Positions 12,110 to 54,295 of a stretch of DNA of 64,000 nt are shown here, piece by piece. The position numbers were made by a program, and so were the translations under genes. Each line of letters starts with the position of its first letter. The stretch's first letter is position 1. Source of the stretch: Nitrosarchaeum sp. (lineage in GTDB: Archaea > Thermoproteota > Nitrososphaeria > Nitrososphaerales > Nitrosopumilaceae); NCBI GenBank assembly GCA_023265135.1, contig JAHFUM010000001.1, positions 313,632 through 377,631 on the forward strand, in the 5' to 3' direction. A model generated the notes under the pieces. That model was given only the letters and a program-made list of their open reading frames with translations. It was not told the DNA's origin and ran no database searches.

Positions 12110-14968
12110 TTATTTGCCTACTGAAATTGATATGTAATGCATTTCAGGAATATTGTCTTTTACAACTATTGTTCCAATATTGAGGTTAGTGTCTTCTTGC
12201 CACATGAATACCCTCTCACTTCTTGGTTTCACAAAATTATCTATGAATTTAGCCAAAAAGGCTTCTGTGTCAGCTCGATCATTTTCAGTAAAGAAGAATA
12301 TCTCTCCTTCTTTAAACGATATTGGAATTTGTATTGATGTTGGCTCAGAAATATTTATGCCATTTTCTTTAAATGCAGATTTTATAATATCTATTCTATC
12401 TGCTTTTCCCAATTCAATGTAACTAGCATCTACTGAAGTTGAGGAACCAGCTACACCAGATACTTTTTGCAAATATGCTTCAAATGCCTCTTGTTGGGTG
12501 TCTCCCAAGCCGACATAATATTCCCCAGTGAAGGCTGCTCCTACAGCTGCGACAGTACCAAGTTGGGCAACAACTCCGCCTGCTCCTGCAGTATATACTG
12601 GTATAAAGTAGACATCGTGTTCACCTACTCTGTACAGAATATTATCTCCAATCCTAGGGTTTCTCAAAAGTGTCTTTAATTCAGCAAATTTTGGATCTTT
12701 ATCCAATGCTTCTCTGACTGCAGTAGGGCCAATCAATTTGGTAGTAGAGTTTAATGGAACTTCATAGAATTGTATGTCACCTAAGTTTTTAAGATCATTC
12801 TGAACTATCATATATCCTGCAAGATTTCTTCCTTGAGAACCTCTTAGTTCCAAGGAAAGTAATCCTATGAATTCTGTTTGATTAAAACCTGGTGGTTTTG
12901 CTTGCACATAGTAAGTCTCTAAACCTTGAGGAACCTCATAAAATTCATTTGCTTGAATAAATGTTTCAGCATCACGTACATGGTAAATGTTATACATTTC
13001 TGCTTTCCAGTTAAACAATTCAACAGGATATCGTATTTGTTTTTCAAGCCAGGTTGGGATTGGTTTGAATTGATCAGAGTATTGTTTTACAAACATATCA
13101 GTAAAGAAATCATCCCCAGTTTTCAATAGTTGAATATTACCATCATGACTATCAATTAGAGCAAATCCTACTAATCTTAGAAACGGATTTCCAGCAGACC
13201 ACGGTACACCGTGAGTATCAAATCCAATTATCAATGGCATCAACCAGTAAGAGTTTTGTCCATCAGTTACTGGAATAGAATCTAATTTCTTACCAAAGAG
13301 ATCATATAAGAAATAAGGATATAAAATCTTCATTCTGTCTTGAACATCTTTGTATCTCATTACGTGGACTGATTCTGCAGGAAAAGAAAGCAAAAAGTTT
13401 GGTTCAAAAGCCCAGCTAAGTGGTGGAGATACATCCAATCCTCCTTTACCATGATAAGATACTCCTCCTAGTTCTGCACTAGTAGATCTAGAATTTGGAT
13501 AAGCCGACCAAGTTTCTTCAAAGAGACCTCCTTCACCATAGTAGATTTCTCGTTGTTTGAAGAATTCACTACTATCTACAATTTGACCATTTGTAGCCTC
13601 AAGTGTGAGGAACCCATTTGGAACATGAGTGTATACAAGATGCTCATTATACCATTTATTTTCAAGACTTACAGAAGAAGGCAGTACAGGCTTCATTGAG
13701 GCTGTCCAGTATAACGTATTATTAAAACGAAGAATATCATTATCTTCAAAATCTACGTTTGGTATTAATCCAATTTCTGGTTTTAATTTAGCAAATGCTG
13801 CCTCCCAATCCCATATTCTAACTACATCAAGTACATCTTTGTTTTTATTTACATAATTTTTAATATTATTTGGAGAAACAGATTGTAATTTTACCTCATG
13901 TGTATTTTCTTTAATATCATTTAGTTGACCAATGTAACGATTAACACCAATTTGTTGAGAAGTATAAGGTCCCAAATATTCAATTTTTTTTGCATCTGCA
14001 ATACTGTTATTGACAGACACCAATCCGCCAACAATCACCGCAATTGCAAGAACTGTTAGAATTCTAATGTATACGTCTCTCTTAAACATATGAGTAAGAA
14101 CACGTGCTCTTATTCTATCTACAAGTGAAAAAGCTAAAAGAGCAAATCCAATTAGCAGCGTTCCGCCGACAACATATCTTGTATTATAATCAATTTGATC
14201 AGTAAAAAACAGATTAAGGCCTAACCATAGTACACCTACACCAATTATGGTTTCTACAGTTGAAACATAATTTAGATATCTTGGTTTTCCACTTTTTGAA
14301 TCCTGAAGATAGGAAGTAACTACATGAATGATTTTATGAATGCCTACATACAAAACTAAACGAATTCCAATTGCTGCAAGAATAGGAGGTAAAAGAATTA
14401 CTAATGTTGGAATCATTGGAACGACATGTTCAAGTGCATAGTTAGAATTAGAAATTGGTGTTACAAATGGTAAAGAAATTATATTGGATAAATTTTCTAT
14501 ACCCAAATGATTTCCGTTGATGAAAGATACTGCTGCAAATCCAAACATGACATTTACAAAAAATGCTCCAAAGAGCAAAATCTTTGTAATTTGCCAAATG
14601 GTGAATTGCAGTGGACTAAGCTTGTAATCCTTAAAGCTTGGAATATTATTTGAGATTGGTTGTTGAGTGCTTTTTCCGATAAAACCAATAGCTGTATGAA
14701 TGCTATACCAAAAGATAGATGATCTTCCAATGATGTTTACTCGTACCAGAGCAATTGCTGAAAGAATAATGGCTGAGACTAGAGAAAAATACAATGGTTT
14801 GCTAAATTGTTCTCCAAATTCGGTAAAATTCATCGATAAAATTACAGCCTGATTTCCTCCAACTGCGAATATTACAGCAGCAATAATGGCAACTATGATT
14901 AATCTAGCAAATTTTCCTGTATCAGGAGGTGGAGCTTGCTTATCAGTGGAGGCGCTATACAAAATCAA
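12110..14968 (-). CDS. UPF0182 family membrane protein
   Basis: 952 aa, matching the large UPF0182 (COG1615) family in length and layout: about seven hydrophobic segments in the first 330 residues, then a long extracytoplasmic domain. Typical motifs include YTSQQIGVNRYIGQL and WDWEAAFAKLKP, followed by YGEGGLFEETWSAYP and PFLRLVGFALIDSHDG. The family is common in actinobacteria and ammonia-oxidising archaea; its function is unknown. The gene stands alone with spacers of about 120 bp on both sides. Confidence 0.9.
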   Translation of the reverse strand: MILYSASTDKQAPPPDTGKFARLIIVAIIAAVIFAVGGNQAVILSMNFTEFGEQFSKPLYFSLVSAIILSAIALVRVNIIGRSSIFWYSIHTAIGFIGKSTQQPISNNIPSFKDYKLSPLQFTIWQITKILLFGAFFVNVMFGFAAVSFINGNHLGIENLSNIISLPFVTPISNSNYALEHVVPMIPTLVILLPPILAAIGIRLVLYVGIHKIIHVVTSYLQDSKSGKPRYLNYVSTVETIIGVGVLWLGLNLFFTDQIDYNTRYVVGGTLLIGFALLAFSLVDRIRARVLTHMFKRDVYIRILTVLAIAVIVGGLVSVNNSIADAKKIEYLGPYTSQQIGVNRYIGQLNDIKENTHEVKLQSVSPNNIKNYVNKNKDVLDVVRIWDWEAAFAKLKPEIGLIPNVDFEDNDILRFNNTLYWTASMKPVLPSSVSLENKWYNEHLVYTHVPNGFLTLEATNGQIVDSSEFFKQREIYYGEGGLFEETWSAYPNSRSTSAELGGVSYHGKGGLDVSPPLSWAFEPNFLLSFPAESVHVMRYKDVQDRMKILYPYFLYDLFGKKLDSIPVTDGQNSYWLMPLIIGFDTHGVPWSAGNPFLRLVGFALIDSHDGNIQLLKTGDDFFTDMFVKQYSDQFKPIPTWLEKQIRYPVELFNWKAEMYNIYHVRDAETFIQANEFYEVPQGLETYYVQAKPPGFNQTEFIGLLSLELRGSQGRNLAGYMIVQNDLKNLGDIQFYEVPLNSTTKLIGPTAVREALDKDPKFAELKTLLRNPRIGDNILYRVGEHDVYFIPVYTAGAGGVVAQLGTVAAVGAAFTGEYYVGLGDTQQEAFEAYLQKVSGVAGSSTSVDASYIELGKADRIDIIKSAFKENGINISEPTSIQIPISFKEGEIFFFTENDRADTEAFLAKFIDNFVKPRSERVFMWQEDTNLNIGTIVVKDNIPEMHYISISVGK

Positions 14969-36070: not shown

Positions 36071-36083
36071 AGTGGTTTCTATG
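36071..36083. other. Candidate left attachment site (attL-like direct repeat)
   Basis: AGTGGTTTCTATG occurs here and again at 54283-54295 next to the integrase gene; with flanks the match is 16 of 17 (ATARAGTGGTTTCTATG). The two copies bracket the accessory block of about 18.2 kb. This copy runs straight into the first dispersed palindromic repeat at 36077. Confidence 0.4.
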
Positions 36084-36109
36084 TGCTTATTTTGCCATAT
36101 AAACACAAA
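36077..36109 (+). repeat. Dispersed dif-like imperfect palindrome, copy 1
   Basis: The core is two inverted 10-bp arms, TGTGCTTATT and TATAAACACA (8 of 10 positions symmetric), around a 6-bp centre TTGCCA, preceded by TTCTA. Three further near-identical copies occur in the same orientation at 37072, 40141 and 45139. This copy ends 8 bp before the stop codon of the minus-strand gene at 36118. Confidence 0.85.
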
Positions 36110-37071: not shown

Positions 37072-37105
37072 TCTACATGCTTATTTTGCCATATAAACAC
37101 AAAAA
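37072..37105 (+). repeat. Dispersed dif-like imperfect palindrome, copy 2
   Basis: TCTACATGCTTATTTTGCCA followed by TATAAACACAAAAA. It differs from copy 1 by ATG for GTG at the left arm tip. It is the only copy not at a gene 3' end: it lies between two divergent genes, 7 bp upstream of the minus-strand start at 37065, where its ATATAAAC could also serve as a TATA box for the plus-strand gene at 37149. Confidence 0.85.
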
Positions 37106-38478: not shown

Positions 38479-39052
38479 GTAGAGAACTTTCCGATATTGT
38501 ATTTACATGACTGATAGCTTTTCCTTGCTCAAGTTTGTATATTCCATATTCGCCAGAAACTGGTTCAAAGTATTCTCCATCAAATGGTGCATGAAGGAGT
38601 ATTACCAAGTTATCACCAATTTGATATTCAGGAATTTCAGACACTACTGTAAATTCATTGAGTGCGCCACCCAATACTTTGAATTTGTACAAATTAGTTG
38701 AGGAGGAACTCTTGATGTTGTCTGTTACCTGTAACTCGTATACACGATAGGGCTGAGTTTGAGCAATTTTTGGAGAATCTTCCTTAACATAATTTCCAAA
38801 CTCATCCCTGTATTGAATTACTTGATATTTATCAACAATTTTTCCTTTAACCACTGCATCTGCCATATGTTTCATCTCTGTAAGATCTGTAGTGGTGTAG
38901 GAATTAAATACCAATATCTCATTTTGATTATCCTTAAGATTTGTTGTATTTACATTGTTTGAATCTAGTGTAGACGTAAAATATACACTGCCAATAACAG
39001 CTATTGTTATAACAGCAAGAATTGAAAATTTGTTTTTGTTTTTCATTTTCAA
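38462..39052 (-). CDS. Secreted or anchored protein, unknown function
   Basis: 196 aa. N-terminal signal anchor (FSILAVITIAVIGSVYF), then a domain with ADAVVKGKIVDKYQVIQY, YRVYELQVTDNIK, and IGDNLVILLHAPFDGEYFEP. This pattern resembles a bacterial exported family of unknown function. Its start overlaps the metalloprotease stop (ATGA), which suggests coupled expression. An inhibitor or chaperone role for the protease is possible but speculative. Confidence 0.7.
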   Translation of the reverse strand: MKMKNKNKFSILAVITIAVIGSVYFTSTLDSNNVNTTNLKDNQNEILVFNSYTTTDLTEMKHMADAVVKGKIVDKYQVIQYRDEFGNYVKEDSPKIAQTQPYRVYELQVTDNIKSSSSTNLYKFKVLGGALNEFTVVSEIPEYQIGDNLVILLHAPFDGEYFEPVSGEYGIYKLEQGKAISHVNTISESSLLEILR

Positions 39053-39645
39053 TAATTCGCCGCCATCATAGAGTCATCGTGTGTGTCAGGACTTCTTCGT
39101 ACTTGATTCTCAGCTATAGAGCCATACATAACAGAAATGGTATTTGTACTATGTTTCATATTTGCAAGATGTCCAAATTCATGTCCTGTTGCACTTCTCC
39201 AATCATATCCGTTAGTTGATGTGTCTTGTGCAGAATCTTCCCATGAAAGATTTTTGTTCATGGCAATGTAGGCTCCAATAGGCACACCATTATTAATGGT
39301 AATAACGGTTAGACCTGCTCCGGAAACTCCGCTAGTCCAGGCATAAACTGGTGTACCGCTAGATGCAGTCTCAGTTAAACTCCATGTACTACCGGAAATA
39401 CCCTCCCATACATTTGAAGATGTTGTCAAGTTAGAACAAGGTGAAACGTGACTAGTTTTTGTAATTGTAGTCAAACTAGAAGTACAAAAGTAATCTTGCG
39501 ATACATCTGCCCATTTCCATGAATATGAATTGGTTGCATATGCTTCACTTCCAATTAGAGAAAAGGCGCTTATAGCAATTGTTGCTATCATTATTGTTGT
39601 CATTTTTGAAGTCATTTTTTTGTTTTTAATAATCATTATTTTCAT
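39049..39645 (-). CDS. Secreted metzincin-type zinc metalloprotease
   Basis: 198 aa with a signal peptide (MIATIAISAFSLIGSEAYA). The zinc-binding motif is HEFGHLANMKHS, i.e. HExxHxxxxxH. The usual glycine of HExxHxxGxxH is Asn here. A Met-turn candidate, ISVMYGSI, follows about 10 residues later. The protein resembles matrixin-like (M10) archaeal peptidases. It heads an operon with two exported proteins, and a perfect inverted repeat lies in its upstream region at 39672. Confidence 0.82.
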   Translation of the reverse strand: MKIMIIKNKKMTSKMTTIMIATIAISAFSLIGSEAYATNSYSWKWADVSQDYFCTSSLTTITKTSHVSPCSNLTTSSNVWEGISGSTWSLTETASSGTPVYAWTSGVSGAGLTVITINNGVPIGAYIAMNKNLSWEDSAQDTSTNGYDWRSATGHEFGHLANMKHSTNTISVMYGSIAENQVRRSPDTHDDSMMAANY

Positions 39646-40140: not shown

Positions 40141-40175
40141 TTCTACATGCTTATTTTGCCATATAAACACAAAAA
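40141..40175 (+). repeat. Dispersed dif-like imperfect palindrome, copy 3
   Basis: TTCTACATGCTTATTTTGCC then ATATAAACACAAAAA. It is identical to copy 2 over the core. It ends 1 bp before the stop codon of the HD phosphohydrolase gene (minus strand, 40177). Confidence 0.85.
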
Positions 40176-40176
40176 A

Positions 40177-41499
40177 CTATTGAATTGGTGCTATTTTTGT
40201 TAGATTCACTTTAAATCTATCAGATATTTTCGAGGCTATTTTTTTCCTAATCTCTTTATCAATTGGACCAAACACCAGATATTTTTCTATATCCTTACCC
40301 GATATTGGAGAAATTGTTTCAAGATCATAGATATCATCTCCAACTCTAAAGAGAAGTTCTCCTTTTTTGTATAGTTTATTCTTTATTGCTGATTTATGAA
40401 AAATCACTTCATATGATTCTAGACCTAATGAATTGCTAATTTCAGATGCAATTTTTTGATAATCATCAGGTTTCATTTTCATTAATTCATTTGCTACATC
40501 TGCATCCTTTTCTAGATCCTTTGGGGTAAATTCACAGACACGTTTCAATAATTTTCTTTTTTTAATATTATTTAGGATTAGTTTTGAGGTCTTAGCTTTA
40601 TCATTATCAATGATTTTACGATATATTGAAAAGTCATCTAGAGATTTGTAAAAGTTAAGAAATTCAGAATTAGTTTTTGCTGGATCAAATTTAAATAAAT
40701 CCTCATCAAAAATTTTTTCTTCATAAATAGCAATTTCAAGAGCTTTTAGAAACATTTGATCAGCTGCCAATCTTGCATGATGTTCATAGACTTGGACATG
40801 CATCAAATAACGTGCTAGTCTATAATTTTCAAGAGAATCTTTTCCTTTATTGGTAACACAGATTTGAGAGCCTTTTACTGTTGAAGTAAGAGTATGAAGA
40901 ATTCTACTAAAATCAAATTGTCCATATGCTACACCAATATGATAAGAATCTCGTCTCAGATAATCTAATTTGTCAGCATCAATACCGCTTGAAACTATAT
41001 CTGATTGAAGAGATTTTGACGGTTCTTTATAAGATTTAATTTCTTTACTTAATAATTCTACAATTTCATTTCGTTTTGAACCTAAAATTGAATCAAGCTC
41101 AGAATCTTCTTTTATAATTATTTTGGAAATTGCCTCATGAGGCTCTTCTATTGTTGGATTAGTTTTTTCCATTATATGTTCAAATAAGTGTGAAAATGGT
41201 CCATGACCAATATCATGAAGCAAGCAAGATAGTCTTATTTTTTCAATATCATCCTGCTTGTTAAAGCCTAATTCGTTAGCCATAATATTTGAAACATATG
41301 TGGTTCCTAGTGAATGCTCAAAACGAGTATGTGTTGCAGAAGGATATACAACATAAGCATGAGAAAGTTGTTTAATAAATTGAAGTCTCCTAAAAATTTC
41401 AGTGTCTATTATTTTAGTTTCTAATTCAGATAGATCAATAAAACCATAGAGAGGATCTCTTATTGCTTTGAACTTAAAATAATTATGTGATAGAGACAA
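40177..41499 (-). CDS. HD-domain phosphohydrolase (SAMHD1/dNTPase-like)
   Basis: 440 aa. The N-terminal HD domain shows HTRFEHSLGTTYVSNIM (His of the motif), LLHDIGHGPFSHLFEH (HD pair) and SGIDADKLDYLRRDSYHIG (distal Asp), the signature of the dNTP triphosphohydrolase/SAMHD1 branch. A C-terminal domain of about 180 aa follows. It overlaps by 17 bp the upstream gene at 41483, whose product resembles YwgA/Panacea proteins. Bacterial YwfO-type HD enzymes are encoded near ywgA. dNTP hydrolysis is inferred from the family. Confidence 0.88.
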   Translation of the reverse strand: MSLSHNYFKFKAIRDPLYGFIDLSELETKIIDTEIFRRLQFIKQLSHAYVVYPSATHTRFEHSLGTTYVSNIMANELGFNKQDDIEKIRLSCLLHDIGHGPFSHLFEHIMEKTNPTIEEPHEAISKIIIKEDSELDSILGSKRNEIVELLSKEIKSYKEPSKSLQSDIVSSGIDADKLDYLRRDSYHIGVAYGQFDFSRILHTLTSTVKGSQICVTNKGKDSLENYRLARYLMHVQVYEHHARLAADQMFLKALEIAIYEEKIFDEDLFKFDPAKTNSEFLNFYKSLDDFSIYRKIIDNDKAKTSKLILNNIKKRKLLKRVCEFTPKDLEKDADVANELMKMKPDDYQKIASEISNSLGLESYEVIFHKSAIKNKLYKKGELLFRVGDDIYDLETISPISGKDIEKYLVFGPIDKEIRKKIASKISDRFKVNLTKIAPIQ

Positions 41500-42049
41500 G
41501 ATCTAGTTTTTGAAGTAATTCAATTCCTGCTAATGCATCATCTGCAGAAACATTCCAATCAAAATCTTTTGCAATTGTTTCTACATCTCTTGCTGTGTAT
41601 TTACCTTGAAGTCCGTCTTCAGAGCTTGTTAAAATGTAATATGCTTTTGCTGCATATGATAAAGGAGTGGGCTTTAGTTCACAGTGTTCTTTACAAATTT
41701 TTATAGTGTTTGCAATAGTTCCAAATTCTTTTGGATATTTTTTTTGAGCAGTTTCAGCATATTTGATTCCATTTTCAGTTAATTTGTATCTATAAGTTTC
41801 ATAATAACTAGAGATTATATTTTCTTCAACATAAGAAAATTCAGACATATCTGCTAATGCAGTTGATACTTCTCGATTAAATGGCCCATAGAAATGATGG
41901 ATGTAATTTGATATATCCAAATTTGGAATCATTACAGTATGAAAGTAAATTAATTTCTGTACTGTTGTTTTACTGATAATTTCATCATTATTTGCATGTA
42001 AAGTTAATGCAATAGCATCAAATACATCCAAGCCCATATCTAGTTTCAA
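41483..42049 (-). CDS. YwgA/Panacea-like protein paired with HD hydrolase
   Basis: 188 aa. Key segments are ISKTTVQKLIYFHTVMIP, YIHHFYGPFNREVSTALADM and YRYKLTENGIKYAE, close in pattern to the LQKLxYF...GPF...L...G layout of YwgA and DUF4065/Panacea proteins. Panacea domains serve as antitoxins in some toxin-antitoxin systems. Its stop overlaps the start of the HD gene, so the two are coupled. The family call is from pattern recognition only. Confidence 0.65.
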   Translation of the reverse strand: MKLDMGLDVFDAIALTLHANNDEIISKTTVQKLIYFHTVMIPNLDISNYIHHFYGPFNREVSTALADMSEFSYVEENIISSYYETYRYKLTENGIKYAETAQKKYPKEFGTIANTIKICKEHCELKPTPLSYAAKAYYILTSSEDGLQGKYTARDVETIAKDFDWNVSADDALAGIELLQKLDLVSIT

Positions 42050-42238
42050 AAACGCAGGTGATGATTTAAGCTTACTGAGGAATTTTTAATTGATCCAAGT
42101 GTGATCGCAAATTGACCTTAATACTAGATCATGAATTTTTTAGATAAAATCATAAATTTTTATAAATTTCTTAATGGTTTTGAGGTTATTGTAAATAAGA
42201 GAGATCATATTTTTAGATGAGATTATGATGATAGTAAT

Positions 42239-42847
42239 GTGAGTGATTTTAGGGTAAATTGTCATTTATGTGATAAAGAAATTATTCGAAAACCTGCAGA
42301 AGATGGCACTTGGCCCATGTTCAATCTAGATGAGACAAATCACGAACATCTGGTAATTTCAGTTAGTACAATTTTATCTGATATTCATTATAAAGATAAT
42401 GAAGACAAAACAAAGCTAATTGGAGAGATGACATTAATGGAACTCGAAGATCGTATAAGAAGACTATCTTCACAAGAAGCTGCTATGAAAATAGGCTCAT
42501 ATTTACATGCAACAAACGGTTTTGTAAGTAGAGGATTCAAAGAAGATTTCATTAAAAAAAATGTTATTGTTAGTGGAAATGAATACTATATCACAGGTAG
42601 TTTGGATGATAAAAACGAGGACACCGTAGTTGAAGCAAAATTCATTGCTTCTAGACGACAATTAAAAAAAATTCGTCAATATGCTAAGGATCAATGCGAT
42701 ATTTACGGTTGGATTACAGGATTGCCAAAAAGTAAATTATTTTTACATATTATTGATGAACATAAAAATGAAGATGAATCACATTTTAATAATATAGAAA
42801 GGGGAGAAGAATTAGTAAATAATTATATTAAAAATAATTTGAGATAA
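42239..42847 (+). CDS. PD-(D/E)XK (Cas4/RecB-like) nuclease-like protein
   Basis: 202 aa from a GTG start. An N-terminal CHLC pair (VNCHLCDKEI) may bind metal. The centre holds YYITGSLDDKNEDTVVEAKF: an Asp followed by the EAK triad, i.e. PD-(D/E)XK motifs II and III. Then comes YAKDQCDIYGW, matching the Q-x3-Y motif of RecB/Cas4 nucleases. A single-strand or restriction-type nuclease is likely. No cas1/cas2 or repeat array is nearby. It lies within the island, divergent from the HD/YwgA-like pair. Confidence 0.68.
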   Translation: MSDFRVNCHLCDKEIIRKPAEDGTWPMFNLDETNHEHLVISVSTILSDIHYKDNEDKTKLIGEMTLMELEDRIRRLSSQEAAMKIGSYLHATNGFVSRGFKEDFIKKNVIVSGNEYYITGSLDDKNEDTVVEAKFIASRRQLKKIRQYAKDQCDIYGWITGLPKSKLFLHIIDEHKNEDESHFNNIERGEELVNNYIKNNLR

Positions 42848-42970
42848 TAATTTATTATATTTTATTTCTTGAACACTAAATTTTAATCAAAAAATATTCT
42901 AATAGTTATGAATAGTTAACTCAATTACAAACTTTGAATGTGTTGTAATAAGTTACATCGACATGATTCA

Positions 42971-43414
42971 TTACCAATCAAATATACTATTTTTCTTAGG
43001 TTTCTTTTTAGTTCTCATTCTAGTGATTGATATATTAGAATCCTTGGCATAGTCACGTACATCTTTAGGAATTTTAGTTTTCTTGGCAACTATTAATACT
43101 CCTTTCTTTGCATAATTTGGATGACCTTTGTATTTTCGTACTTGATCAACGTGTTTGAATTCAAGTTTCTTGACATTTTTTGCATCTCCAACAATTCGAT
43201 CATGTGGATTCTTCTTTGAATACCCTACAAAATCAGGTCTAGTATGAGTAGATTTTGAATATTTTTGTGTCTCAACCTTGTATCCTTTAAAATGATTTGA
43301 AGTCTTTCCTTTTTTCTCTAGAGTTTTCCAATGATTACCTACAGCGACTCCATTTTTCTTATGTCTTTTTGGTTTTGGTGTACTAGTTCCTAAAATAGAA
43401 TCCCAAAAACCCAT
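42971..43414 (-). CDS. Small basic PD-(D/E)XK-like protein (147 aa)
   Basis: A very basic N-terminal third is followed by TRPDFVGYSKKNPHDRIVGD, then AKNVKKLEFKHVDQVRKYKG, the order PD...(x)DAK...Q...Y expected for a restriction-like nuclease core. A beta strand (AKKGVLIVAKKTK) follows. The product is short for a nuclease but similar in size to Holliday-junction resolvase-type cores. It is divergent from the tiny basic protein at 43485. Confidence 0.6.
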   Translation of the reverse strand: MGFWDSILGTSTPKPKRHKKNGVAVGNHWKTLEKKGKTSNHFKGYKVETQKYSKSTHTRPDFVGYSKKNPHDRIVGDAKNVKKLEFKHVDQVRKYKGHPNYAKKGVLIVAKKTKIPKDVRDYAKDSNISITRMRTKKKPKKNSIFDW

Positions 43415-43484
43415 GAAATAGAATACTGTTAATGGGTTATGAGCATACCTAAATTTTTAAATAATATTTTGTTCTAAACAACCA

Positions 43485-43655
43485 ATGCCTGAATTCTTGG
43501 CAAAGAAAAAGAAAACAAAGACAAAGCGACCTGTAGAATTCAAGACTACCAGTGGAAAAAAGATAGAATTCAAAGCCAGACGAAAGCCACAGAGAAGAGT
43601 CAGAGTGAAATTCAAGTCTGAATCAGAAAAGTCTTGGTTTGAGAAGTTATTTTAA
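43485..43655 (+). CDS. Small highly basic protein (56 aa)
   Basis: Starts MPEFLAKKKKTKTKRPVEFK and continues with KKIEFKARRKPQRRVRVKF, ending in KSWFEKLF. About 40 percent of residues are Lys or Arg, so nucleic-acid binding is likely. It is divergent from the nuclease-like gene at 42971 and shares the basic, KPK-rich style of that protein's N-terminus. No family is recognised. Confidence 0.6.
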   Translation: MPEFLAKKKKTKTKRPVEFKTTSGKKIEFKARRKPQRRVRVKFKSESEKSWFEKLF

Positions 43656-43774
43656 ATTGATTGAATTTGTAATCTGTGTTGTCTAGATCATTAGTGTGAT
43701 CTTATCATCAATAATAAGTAAAAAAAAATAGATCATTCTGATCTATTAAACCCAAACTACCTCTACAGAAGATC

Positions 43775-44050
43775 TTGCAATCATCTAATTTAGAACATAG
43801 AATTTTAGATTGGAATGAGGAAGGAAATCATATTCAAAAAATTCTTTTAGATTATGATTGGAAATATAGAGAGAAAATTTGTACAAATTGCCCCCTAGAG
43901 ACACAAAAAAAATTAGAATGTTTTAGAGTAAATAATTACAAAAACAACATACAAGAAACGCATTGTAGAAAAATGGATAAAGCTAGAACTCAAAAATATA
44001 GAAAGTTAATTACAAAATTTATACAGTTTCATCCATTAAGTAATAGATGA
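43775..44050 (+). CDS. Hypothetical protein (91 aa), cysteine-containing
   Basis: The only start is TTG at 43775. The product has LLDYDWKYREKICTNCPLET, then LECFRV and THCRKMDKART, four cysteines that could form a metal site. It is strongly charged. It overlaps the 3' end of the convergent gene at 44036 by 15 bp. The reading frame is plausible but unsupported by family evidence. Confidence 0.5.
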   Translation: MQSSNLEHRILDWNEEGNHIQKILLDYDWKYREKICTNCPLETQKKLECFRVNNYKNNIQETHCRKMDKARTQKYRKLITKFIQFHPLSNR

Positions 44051-45028
44051 TAGAACTGAATATAGATCAGGTTTTGATTTTATAAATTTAGAATAATATG
44101 TTTTGTTAACAATATGCGGAATTGATAATTCAAGTTGAGATATTTGAGAATTGATTGAATGTGCTCTACTTTGTACATTTGAGATTTGAGTAGTTTCTTC
44201 AAAAGTATGAGTTTTTGAATCAAAATTAAGAATTTTCATCTTAGGTTTAGGCTTAGATTTTGTTTTATGATTTCTAATAGTGGGATAACCAAGAGATGCA
44301 GTGTGAACTCCATATAGATATACTATAGAAGTAAGGGAGATAGGATTTGCATTACTAAGATATCGTTGGGAAATTCCTACAACATTACACCAAATATCTA
44401 CTCCATGAATCTTTTTTGATAATTCTATCCAGTTTACTTGTTGATCATAGATAGAACGATAAACAACATTGAATCTTTCAAAACCATTATCAATTAATTT
44501 TTGGATTTTTTCTCCAAACAAACCTATAGTTTTAATTCCTATATCCACAGTAGGACTGACTACATATCCATCGTTGTTGCTACGTAATTCCAGTATTTGT
44601 TTTTCAAATTTTATTGCACTTTGTTCTATGTTAGATTCATAATCAGAGATTATTATAGCACCTGCTTGTTTTTGAATATCAATAATTGCTTCTCTTTCTT
44701 GTTCTGTTGGAAGATATTTTGGATAATATTGATAATAAAAATCCCATAATATAGTTGGATATTTTTTGATTAATAATTGATAATTATTTATGATGTTTTG
44801 CTTTTTATTAGAAGTGATATCAATTTTTTTTCTTGGTCTGTATACATACTGTGAGGTGGTACAATTTAGTTTAATTTTTGCATGTTCAGCATCATCAAGC
44901 TCACTTTGATGAGGAGATAGTATAGGAAAATTTGAATTCCAATGCCCTAAACTTGCAGATGATGCATTTGAATAAATGGAGTATAATTTTCCAATATATT
45001 CATCAGCACCAATATTTTTAATATTCAT
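44036..45028 (-). CDS. Hypothetical protein (330 aa), possible TIM-barrel-like centre
   Basis: I do not recognise the family. The middle shows alternating strand/helix phrases (AGAIIISDYESNIEQSAIKF; IGLFGEKIQKLIDNGFERFN; WIELSKKIHGVDIWCNVVGI) suggestive of a TIM barrel, loosely like tRNA-guanine transglycosylase relatives used in DNA modification. That idea is weak. No signal peptide or membrane segment is seen. It stands alone between the dispersed repeat copies 3 and 4. Confidence 0.65.
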   Translation of the reverse strand: MNIKNIGADEYIGKLYSIYSNASSASLGHWNSNFPILSPHQSELDDAEHAKIKLNCTTSQYVYRPRKKIDITSNKKQNIINNYQLLIKKYPTILWDFYYQYYPKYLPTEQEREAIIDIQKQAGAIIISDYESNIEQSAIKFEKQILELRSNNDGYVVSPTVDIGIKTIGLFGEKIQKLIDNGFERFNVVYRSIYDQQVNWIELSKKIHGVDIWCNVVGISQRYLSNANPISLTSIVYLYGVHTASLGYPTIRNHKTKSKPKPKMKILNFDSKTHTFEETTQISNVQSRAHSINSQISQLELSIPHIVNKTYYSKFIKSKPDLYSVLSSIT

Positions 45029-45138
45029 CTACACTTATGATGTTTTCAAGTATTTAATGGAAATCAATGATCGATTTTTTACAAATAGTAGAGGAACTTT
45101 CAATCAGGATTATTTTTTAGTGATCGCATGTAAAATGC

Positions 45139-45169
45139 TTCTATGTGCTTATTTTGCCATATAAACAAC
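45139..45169 (+). repeat. Dispersed dif-like imperfect palindrome, copy 4
   Basis: TTCTATGTGCTTATTTTGCC then ATATAAACAAC. The left part is identical to copy 1 and the right arm ends CAAC instead of CAC. Its last base is the first base of the stop codon of the minus-strand gene at 45169, so the site again abuts a gene 3' end. Confidence 0.85.
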
Positions 45170-49453: not shown

Positions 49454-50785
49454 GTGGATAGTTTCGAACCAATGTCTGAAGTAAAGGACCAATCTTCCAA
49501 CAAGGGAAAGTCAAAAGTTAAGGGATTAGTAAACAAGACTCAGTATGTAGAGTCTGTAATTGTTGATTCAAAACCTGCGTTTTTGATGACAGACATCAGT
49601 ACTGGTGAGAAATCGGTACTAGACAAAGTGCTTACGCCAAATGGAATAGTCAGGCCTCTTAAGAGAGAAGAGATGGGCTACATCCCGTTTGAGTTCACCT
49701 CTGCTGAAATTGAGGAGTGGAAATCTGTTGTTTTTGACAGAGAGCAGCTCCTAGATGACATTCTGGAAGTGGTTCAACAGTACCTAGACGTATCATTTCA
49801 AGAGCAGATACTGTTTACTGGTGACATCCTTCTTACATATTGCCTTGATTGGACAAGCACTACCCACTTCCTGTTTTTTGTAGGCGATAGAGGTTCGGGC
49901 AAGACAAATGCAACTAGGATTGTTTCAGAACTAGGATACCGGTGTATGTCGACTGCTCAGATGTCTCCGGCAAACATCTACAACTTTCTGTCAACCGATG
50001 AGGAAGGATGTGGAACCATATGCGAAGATGAAGCAGATGACATAGATAACAACACGGAAAAGTTGCGCATCTACAAAAGTTCCTATGCAAAGGGCCAGAA
50101 GATTCCAAAAATGGACATGTATGGAAAAAAGGTGCAATTGTACTACAATACATATTGCATGGTGTTTTTTTCAGGCGAAGGTCTACCAAAAAATCAAGCA
50201 TTAAGAGAGCGAATTGTTGCCGTCTATATGATAAAGGGAAATCCAAAGGACAACATCAAACGTCCAAAGGATCTGAAGTGGAAGGAGGAACACATTGCAC
50301 CGCTTCGAAAGAAACTGTTGATGTGGAAACTCCAGAACATAGGTAAAAAATTTTCTACGATAGATTCCGGACTTACTGGTCGTGATCAGGAATTATTTGA
50401 GGATTTCCTTTCTGTATTTGCAGGAACAAAGCATGAAAGCGATGCAAGAGATGTAGTGAATCATTATGTCAATAAGAGACAGCAGGCAATAGCTGATAGT
50501 CTTGAGGGAATAATCTTTAGAATACTTGAACCGCTTCTTGATGAAAACAGAAAGATTGAGTTCCAGCGATTGTATGACATTCTTACAACAAGTGATGAGT
50601 TGTCTGAATATCAATACAAGATAAACAGGAATGTGGTTTCAAAGATTCTCTTGGAAAAATTTCAAGCAGTAAATAAACCAATTATCAAGACGGTTAATGG
50701 AATCAGGAAGCAGACAACATACTATAGGTTTGATGAGAGGATATTAAAAGTACTATCCGAAAAATATCGTATCAACGATCTATAA
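49454..50785 (+). CDS. AAA-type ATPase (mobile-element replication/helicase-like) with C-terminal winged helix
   Basis: 443 aa. Walker A is FFVGDRGSGKTNATRI near residue 143. A Walker B-like CGTICEDEADDI follows about 45 residues later, and QALRERIVAVYMIKGNP supplies a candidate arginine finger. The C-terminal 100 residues look like a winged helix (IEFQRLYDILTTSDELSEYQ; RNVVSKILLEKFQ). The layout resembles helicase/primase-associated ATPases of plasmids and integrated elements. GC content is higher than in flanking genes. The start is GTG 49454, or ATG 49472. Confidence 0.72.
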   Translation: MDSFEPMSEVKDQSSNKGKSKVKGLVNKTQYVESVIVDSKPAFLMTDISTGEKSVLDKVLTPNGIVRPLKREEMGYIPFEFTSAEIEEWKSVVFDREQLLDDILEVVQQYLDVSFQEQILFTGDILLTYCLDWTSTTHFLFFVGDRGSGKTNATRIVSELGYRCMSTAQMSPANIYNFLSTDEEGCGTICEDEADDIDNNTEKLRIYKSSYAKGQKIPKMDMYGKKVQLYYNTYCMVFFSGEGLPKNQALRERIVAVYMIKGNPKDNIKRPKDLKWKEEHIAPLRKKLLMWKLQNIGKKFSTIDSGLTGRDQELFEDFLSVFAGTKHESDARDVVNHYVNKRQQAIADSLEGIIFRILEPLLDENRKIEFQRLYDILTTSDELSEYQYKINRNVVSKILLEKFQAVNKPIIKTVNGIRKQTTYYRFDERILKVLSEKYRINDL

Positions 50786-53078: not shown

Positions 53079-54218
53079 TTATCTTAATAGAAAATCTGGT
53101 ACTTCAATACTGTTTGTTCTAAGATACTGCATTAGATCATCAACTTTGTTTTCCAAATTCTGATATTTTGTTGATAAAATCTTCACATTCTTTTCTACTG
53201 CCTCAAAGTCAGAAATCGTAAGGTACGGCTCGACCTCCAGATACATCTCCCTTTTCTTCTCGTCATTCAGCTGGTAGTAAGTATTCATGTAGAATTGGTG
53301 TCCTATGAGCGCCTCTGCAAAATCCCTGCCTGAGGCGTTGCCTACGGTAGTCCTGAAGAACTTTCTCAAAGCATGATAGTGTATTACCCTTATTCCATTA
53401 GGATTGGTCCTGTTCAAATCAGGAATCTTTTCAAGATAGTATTTCAGTTGCCTCATCAGCAGGCCCTCTGCTACAAGGTGGGCGGGCTGTCTTGGGTTTT
53501 CTTTTCTCTTGCGATTACTGGAATAATCTCTGCCAAATATCAGTACGTCATCAAGATGGGAGTTGTCTTTCTTCTCGTCCCACTTTAGAAATCTGGAAAG
53601 GTAATCTTTCAGCGAGTTTGTTGCCTCTGCTGTTATGAAAGTTTCACGTGCACTTCTTGTCTTTGTAATTTTTGCTGGAAGTCTTACTGTTGTAGGCGTT
53701 GTTGTAAAATCAACGTCAGATAGTTTCAGTTGCACAAGCTCGCCTATTCTCATTCCGCTTGATGACAGCACAAGTATTACAGTCTGTAGTCTTGGCGGTG
53801 CGTTTCTTAATACTCGTAAGATTATTTCTTTTGTAAGTGCGGCTTCGGGTTCCTGAATATTTTTTGGAACTCTGATGATGTGTTTGCAGTCCTCTGCGTA
53901 AATCTTCAGTCCTAAAAATCTCATGTATCCCTTGATTGCAGCAAGCCTTGACGTGATTGTCTTTGGTTTGTAGTTGTTTTTATCGAGGAAAATAACATAA
54001 TCTCTCAAAATAACATAGATGTCAAACTTTTCTTGTTGTGTCTGCTCTGCAAATTCCAGTTCGCAGATGCTGTATCTTTGCTGGAGAAAATCCCTGAACC
54101 CTGTCTTGTTCTTGTTTGAGATTGCAAGCCTGTACGAGCTTACTGTGCTGTAGCTGTGCGACATGATGAACACAGAGTCAAGGAACGCTTCTGCCTTTTG
54201 CATCAGGAGTTCTTGCAT
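53079..54218 (-). CDS. Tyrosine recombinase/integrase
   Basis: 379 aa, longer than archaeal XerA (about 290). The catalytic residues are visible: Arg in LSSSGMRIGELVQLKL, Lys region PAKITKTRSARETFIT, HxLR in IHYHALRKFFRT, His in ALIGHQFYMN and the nucleophile Tyr in NTYYQLND. An N-terminal SAM-like core-binding domain (TITSRLAAIKGYMRFLGL) is present, and the C-terminus adds a coiled coil. GC-rich codon use relative to neighbours points to acquisition. It lies 65 bp from the candidate right attachment site. Confidence 0.9.
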   Translation of the reverse strand: MQELLMQKAEAFLDSVFIMSHSYSTVSSYRLAISNKNKTGFRDFLQQRYSICELEFAEQTQQEKFDIYVILRDYVIFLDKNNYKPKTITSRLAAIKGYMRFLGLKIYAEDCKHIIRVPKNIQEPEAALTKEIILRVLRNAPPRLQTVILVLSSSGMRIGELVQLKLSDVDFTTTPTTVRLPAKITKTRSARETFITAEATNSLKDYLSRFLKWDEKKDNSHLDDVLIFGRDYSSNRKRKENPRQPAHLVAEGLLMRQLKYYLEKIPDLNRTNPNGIRVIHYHALRKFFRTTVGNASGRDFAEALIGHQFYMNTYYQLNDEKKREMYLEVEPYLTISDFEAVEKNVKILSTKYQNLENKVDDLMQYLRTNSIEVPDFLLR

Positions 54219-54282: not shown

Positions 54283-54295
54283 AGTGGTTTCTATG
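54283..54295. other. Candidate right attachment site (attR-like direct repeat)
   Basis: AGTGGTTTCTATG, identical to 36071-36083. It covers the stop codon of the flippase-like gene (minus strand, TAG at 54291-54293) and lies between that gene and the integrase. Integration into a gene's 3' end with the stop restored is typical of tyrosine recombinases. Confidence 0.4.

Follow-up and report, generated by a model that had tools for sequence, protein, structure and literature searches.

An HD phosphohydrolase of the SAMHD1 family paired with a YwgA/DarG-C-like protein on an archaeal integrative element: a candidate partner-restrained dNTPase

The window, a stretch of 64,000 nucleotides of a Nitrosarchaeum contig (JAHFUM010000001.1, assembly GCA_023265135.1), carries two overlapping genes that encode an HD phosphohydrolase of the SAMHD1/EF1143/YwfO family and a small YwgA-type protein resembling the C-terminal domain of DarG. 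The reading that we prefer, and to which we give about even chances, is that the DarG-C-like protein is a dedicated brake on a dNTPase that drains deoxynucleoside triphosphates (dNTPs) when released. The pair may therefore be a regulated antiviral or growth-control switch.

The HD gene (40177 to 41499, minus strand) encodes 440 amino acids and opens with a TTG at 41499, where the gene of a relative from another genus (G483) has an ATG. The protein matches the Pfam families HD (E = 1.3e-14) and HD_assoc_2 (E = 1.6e-16), and its nearest PDB sequences (E-values from 9e-45 to 6e-34) are 2hek, 9mr6, 2q14, EF1143 (2o6i) and SAMHD1; 9mr6, labelled just 'HD domain-containing protein', may be a structure of CloA from the Clover system. 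The catalytic set is complete (H62, H95, D96, H99, H104, H121, E122 and D176). Across 67 aligned HD proteins the equivalents of SAMHD1 H167, H206, D207, H210, H215, H233 and D311 are invariant and that of E234 is nearly so, SAMHD1 numbering having been placed on the window protein through alignments and the SAMHD1 sequence. An earlier note on this DNA, made from the letters alone, had called the product a SAMHD1/dNTPase-type HD enzyme; the Pfam domains, the PDB relatives and the catalytic residues bear this out, and the protein is predicted to be a dNTP triphosphohydrolase.

SAMHD1 and EF1143 share the enzyme family and the catalytic residues of the window protein but differ from it at allosteric site 1. 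In SAMHD1 this site includes D137, Q142 and R145, and mutation of Q142 or R145 impairs tetramerisation and hydrolysis (PMC7045340). The window protein retains the aspartate (D32, equivalent to D137, a position that is highly variable across the HD family) and has R37 and Q40 instead of Q142 and R145. Both residues are replaced throughout the window-type clade, whose eight members all have arginine at the Q142 position and glutamine, leucine or histidine at the R145 position; among the 59 HD proteins outside the clade, glutamine is found at the former in 58 and arginine at the latter in 57. The loss of these residues limits the extent to which 'SAMHD1-like regulation' may be assumed, not membership of the enzyme family. 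The alteration predicts that enzymes of the window-type clade have a changed activator, or that their control has been handed to the partner.

The partner gene (41483 to 42037, minus strand, 184 amino acids from its ATG) lies upstream of the HD gene and overlaps it by 17 nucleotides, as the earlier description of two overlapping genes implied, and an identical 17-nucleotide overlap exists in G483. Its open reading frame begins with a TTG at 42049; translation probably starts at the ATG of position 42037, because the 73%-identical partner of G483 (L211) begins at the same residue. The LQKLIYF...YGPFNREV pattern ascribed to this protein is present in the form VQKLIYF...HFYGPFNREV, with VQ rather than LQ as the first residues.

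The partner had been described as a YwgA/DUF4065 (Panacea) protein, of which only the YwgA-type label is kept here: the protein (P0002) has no Pfam match, Panacea PF13274 included, and its relatives reach 0.0018 to 0.034 against the Panacea model. DarG models, by comparison, match it over approximately residues 18 to 144, in the C-terminal region of DarG (NCBIfam, E = 1.2e-5; PADLOC, E = 1.5e-6), and the NCBIfam model is matched by 47 of the 47 aligned members of the partner family (best E = 1.4e-10), these matches being partial and under the cut-off for the full-length DarG model. AlphaFold models of the window partner (pLDDT 76) and a relative from Kurthia (pLDDT 90) share the same first Foldseek match, DarG in the Mycobacterium tuberculosis DarTG complex 7yk3 (E = 1.6e-3 and 7.1e-4; probability 1.00, TM 0.48 to 0.60), and PadR/MarR winged-helix structures appear lower in the lists. 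Entry 7yk3 is also first in a profile search of PDB sequences with the partner, at an E-value of only 0.054. A Haloarcula protein found by the partner-family profile (3.7e-16) itself passes the Pfam Panacea cut-off. As judged from sequence and predicted structure, the nearest characterised relative of the partner is thus the C-terminal domain of DarG, which inhibits DarT by occupying the DNA site of the latter (PMC11481870), and Panacea (DUF4065) is more distant.

HD and YwgA genes are paired well beyond the window. A contig scan returned 80 YwgA loci (79 from Bacillus-group bacteria and one from Nitrosopumilus), all 80 of which have an HD gene immediately upstream on the same strand; as the query aligned three YwgA proteins that are encoded next to HD genes, this figure gauges constancy within that subfamily and not among all YwgA relatives. 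Among 397 Thermoproteota genomes, each represented by one locus, an HD gene adjoins 13 of the top 15 YwgA-like loci by score and one of the next 15, and two or three of the HD genes at these best loci appear truncated or split. The survey of co-occurrence that the earlier note had proposed thus finds the pair recurring in archaea and in Bacillus-group bacteria, and the statement that YwfO-type HD enzymes are encoded near ywgA in Bacillus is confirmed. Bacteria have the order HD-YwgA, and archaea show both orders on a single strand: the window type is YwgA-HD, usually with overlapping genes, and the others are HD-YwgA. The HD protein of G483 is 78% identical to that of the window, is accompanied by a partner and is encoded near the same membrane-protein gene. 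A copy of the YwfO-YwgA pair also occurs on a Priestia plasmid; the window partner used as a query against plasmids gave no match, and scans of IMG/VR viral sequences yielded no confirmed relative.

Pairwise distances among the HD proteins and among their partners are strongly correlated (r = 0.94 over 22 pairs and 0.96 within the window clade, range 0.94 to 0.97), with a correlation as high being reached in a fraction of no more than 0.002 of permutations; part of this correlation is due to shared descent and co-transfer, which alone could yield it. The sequence comparison indicates that HD enzyme and partner travel together, with no evident partner swapping.

The pair is cargo of an integrative element of approximately 18.2 kb, which gives substance to the mobile island postulated earlier. 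The element is recognised because it has an integrase, direct repeats at its ends and an empty counterpart in relatives. The gene for a tyrosine integrase (53079 to 54218, minus strand; Phage_integrase, 2e-11; phrog_1, 2.4e-22) occupies its right end, and the 13-bp repeat AGTGGTTTCTATG is perfect at both ends (36071 to 36083 on the left and 54283 to 54295 on the right, plus strand; chance expectation 0.00). An empty site is found at L227, the same locus is empty in G016, where the sequence reads GATAAAGTGGTTTCTATGATTTTTC, and several relatives have the two flanking genes, for a membrane protein and a dehydrogenase, next to each other.

Within the element, the 20-bp repeat CTTATTTTGCCATATAAACA is present in four exact direct copies on the plus strand (chance expectation 0.06), located at 36086 to 36105 (the element end, beside the left attachment repeat), 37080 to 37099, 40150 to 40169 and 45148 to 45167. 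The copies split the element into segments, and the third and fourth form the left and right edges of the segment (40150 to 45148) that holds the HD-YwgA pair. The repeat sites that the earlier note took as boundaries do bracket this segment, but the true ends of the element are the 13-bp repeats. This layout suggests a stepwise accretion of segments, similar to the build-up of cassettes at an attachment site. An Xer/dif module, suggested by a 28-bp site with an 11-6-11 appearance in four copies, was rejected because most genomes of the genus lack the site, as do empty loci: with as many as 3 mismatches allowed, the 28-mer occurs in just 3 of the 18 genomes of the genus, and the empty loci carry the 13-bp core alone. 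It is thus the 13-bp repeat, and not the 28-bp site, that forms the attachment core. A promoter function of the repeat was also discarded, since the site occurs as well where the left neighbour faces the opposite way (L064).

Two nuclease-like genes had been placed alongside the pair. Both reading frames exist on the same segment and have matches of PD-(D/E)XK type, but these are weak: the gene at 42239 to 42847 (plus strand) encodes a possible PD-(D/E)XK nuclease with DUF3799/Cas4-like matches, and that at 42971 to 43414 (minus strand) a possible small PD-(D/E)XK protein (PDDEXK_3, E = 0.2). They lie outside the pair and were rejected as members of the system, as no homologue is found beside other pairs. 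Positions 43775 to 44050 and 44036 to 45028 hold convergent, tail-overlapping genes (91 and 330 amino acids) that belong to no family. The same two convergent genes occur in G020 (L051:11616-12629 and 12615-12905), and both loci carry HD-YwgA pairs, of different type; being present at the G020 locus and absent from the other scanned pair loci, these genes were likewise not retained as members.

Other genomes have defence-related genes in comparable positions. The same chromosomal attachment site is occupied in the sister genome G002 by genes for a TIR-domain protein and a short Argonaute, in a SPARTA-like arrangement (L066:6769-9758), and in another sister genome, G001, by genes for a PDC-S11 candidate and a protein of HNH type. 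In G478, another HD-YwgA pair adjoins a type IIG restriction enzyme. The case for a defence function of the pair is circumstantial.

HD genes without a partner are also widespread. The source genome has a second HD gene (C21:485322), whose product is 39% identical to the window HD protein. An HD gene is present in 39 of 41 relatives, and the near-universal copy is flanked in the source genome and in G018 by kinase-like genes that we read as thymidylate and nucleotide kinases. The tree includes 30 core-type copies, and a YwgA gene is absent from the flanks (about 1.5 kb) of every one. The window-type HD proteins form one clade with 100/100 support, separate from the near-universal partner-less clade, and this split excludes the window gene as a recent duplicate of the near-universal one. 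Listeria (L181) and Staphylococcus (L182) keep the HD gene and its neighbouring genes with no ywgA alongside, a profile search of the flanks being empty, and G435 (L210) has a window-type HD gene with no partner in its neighbourhood. The window-type HD gene is the sole HD match in the genomes G113, G429 and G435; in the first two it is paired and sits near replication-factor-C-like and uracil-DNA-glycosylase-like genes. The partner-less genes imply that the enzyme is not generally lethal by itself. As a separate observation, the family is expanded in G018, which has about eleven YwgA-like genes (at L046:6080-11334 and other loci), several of them in a tandem array and none beside an HD gene.

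Under the preferred reading, the pair would act as a two-gene cassette on the integrative element, the overlapping genes probably being translationally coupled. The HD enzyme would hydrolyse dNTPs, and the partner would bind its own HD enzyme and either restrain it or set its threshold of activation, much as the C-terminal domain of DarG acts on DarT. Infection, a nucleotide signal or another stress would relieve the brake, and the released enzyme would drain dNTPs, bringing the replication of virus and host DNA to a stop. This model is supported by the two protein families, the intact catalytic residues, the pairing, the co-divergence, the altered allosteric residues, the mobility features of the pair, its location at a hotspot, and the broken HD gene with intact partner of G023. 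Against it stand the partner-less HD genes (those of Listeria, Staphylococcus and G435 and the core copies of archaea), as well as G113 and G429, where the paired enzyme is the sole HD match and is encoded by replication and repair genes. In addition, the PadR/MarR-like winged-helix matches would also fit a transcriptional role of the partner.

The pair could alternatively be a classical type II toxin-antitoxin system, with the HD enzyme as a toxin when unrestrained, the partner as its neutraliser and a more stable integrative element as the outcome. We consider this improbable, despite an overlapping two-gene operon with a DarG-like antitoxin fold on a mobile element, despite G023, where the HD gene is broken and the partner is intact, and despite the accessory HD genes with inspected neighbourhoods in Nitrosopumilaceae, which nearly always have an adjacent partner. 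The partner-less HD genes listed above argue against it, partner-like genes without an HD gene are common (as in the G018 array), and a YwfO-like protein has been discussed as a house-cleaning enzyme in the minimal JCVI genome (PMC4993169). The toxin-antitoxin pair proposed in the earlier note is weakened in its obligatory form; strict addiction is unlikely to hold generally, although the mobile copy may differ.

Similarly improbable, in our estimate, is a housekeeping regulation of the dNTP pool, with YwgA as a metabolic co-regulator of YwfO-type dNTPases and the element holding a spare copy. One argument for it is the apparently stable chromosomal operon of the Bacillus group, which favours metabolism over defence, and the genomic setting of the paired enzymes of G113 and G429 points the same way. 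However, the pair is sporadic in archaea, it is carried here by an element that has an integrase and sits at a defence hotspot, and the same genome already has the near-universal HD gene. Least probable of all appears to be a partner that controls the transcription of its own operon as a winged-helix regulator instead of inhibiting a protein. The structural likeness to PadR/MarR regulators that suggests it is secondary, DarG and not PadR being the top match for both fold and sequence models; moreover, the signature QK...H..GP...Y.Y is common to the window partner and its bacterial relatives, and the C-terminal domain of DarG acts by inhibiting a protein (PMC11481870).

Several known systems resemble the pair in part. 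YwfO-YwgA of the Bacillus group consists of the same two families, adjacent and on the same strand, but has the HD gene first, is a chromosomal operon and keeps the allosteric glutamine and arginine; identity with the window proteins is about 25% for the HD enzyme and 16 to 19% for the partner. In DarTG, the DarG C-terminal domain that physically blocks DarT shares its fold and a weak sequence similarity with the partner, whereas the window partner is a single domain of 184 amino acids without a macrodomain and its associated enzyme is an HD phosphohydrolase; no DarT match was found among the ORFs scanned. The Panacea system PanAT has a two-gene neutraliser layout and, by way of the Haloarcula protein, belongs to the same broad superfamily as the partner, although PF13274 gives no match to the latter. 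The published survey of Panacea proteins, in whose main text the phrase 'HD domain' is absent, applied the Pfam gathering cut-off (PMC8832971), a threshold that the partner family does not reach. The open-licence literature gave no account of an HD-YwgA pair under YwgA, YwfO, or DUF4065/Panacea together with HD domain. The nearest functional analogue is Clover, an HD dNTPase held back via a partner gene, in which the dGTPase CloA is restrained by a nucleotide from the nucleotidyltransferase CloB (PMC12265719). There the brake is the nucleotide made by CloB, whereas the window has a small protein of DarG-C type as the partner, and no nucleotidyltransferase match was obtained for the ORFs scanned in the HD-YwgA segment.

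We tentatively suggest, as a possibility that we rate below the brake itself, that the pair represents an undescribed form of nucleotide-depletion immunity common to bacteria and archaea. A dedicated DarG-C-like protein, and not a nucleotide signal, would act as the brake on a SAMHD1-type dNTPase, and the window-type clade would have switched its activating ligand or come under control of the partner protein in place of guanine nucleotides. If true, this would join the dNTP-depleting HD enzymes (SAMHD1, dGTPases and Clover) with the DarG/Panacea antitoxin superfamily, and in relatives of Nitrosopumilus it would provide a concrete candidate antiviral effector on an integrative element. The pair is common in the Bacillus group and so offers a route to the function of the widespread uncharacterised ywgA, and it could reveal how YwfO-type dNTPases are restrained.

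Three further genes deserve mention. A gene for a Cdc48-like ATPase lies beside HD-YwgA pairs or remnants of them at L101, L216 (G483 C104) and L053 (G023), possibly marking a second hotspot. Positions 49454 to 50785 of the window encode a P-loop protein of 443 amino acids (GDRGSGKT) with no family match, possibly the replication helicase of the element. On the neighbouring segment of the element, positions 39049 to 39645 encode a matrixin-like metalloprotease (Peptidase_M10, 5e-6) that is probably secreted.
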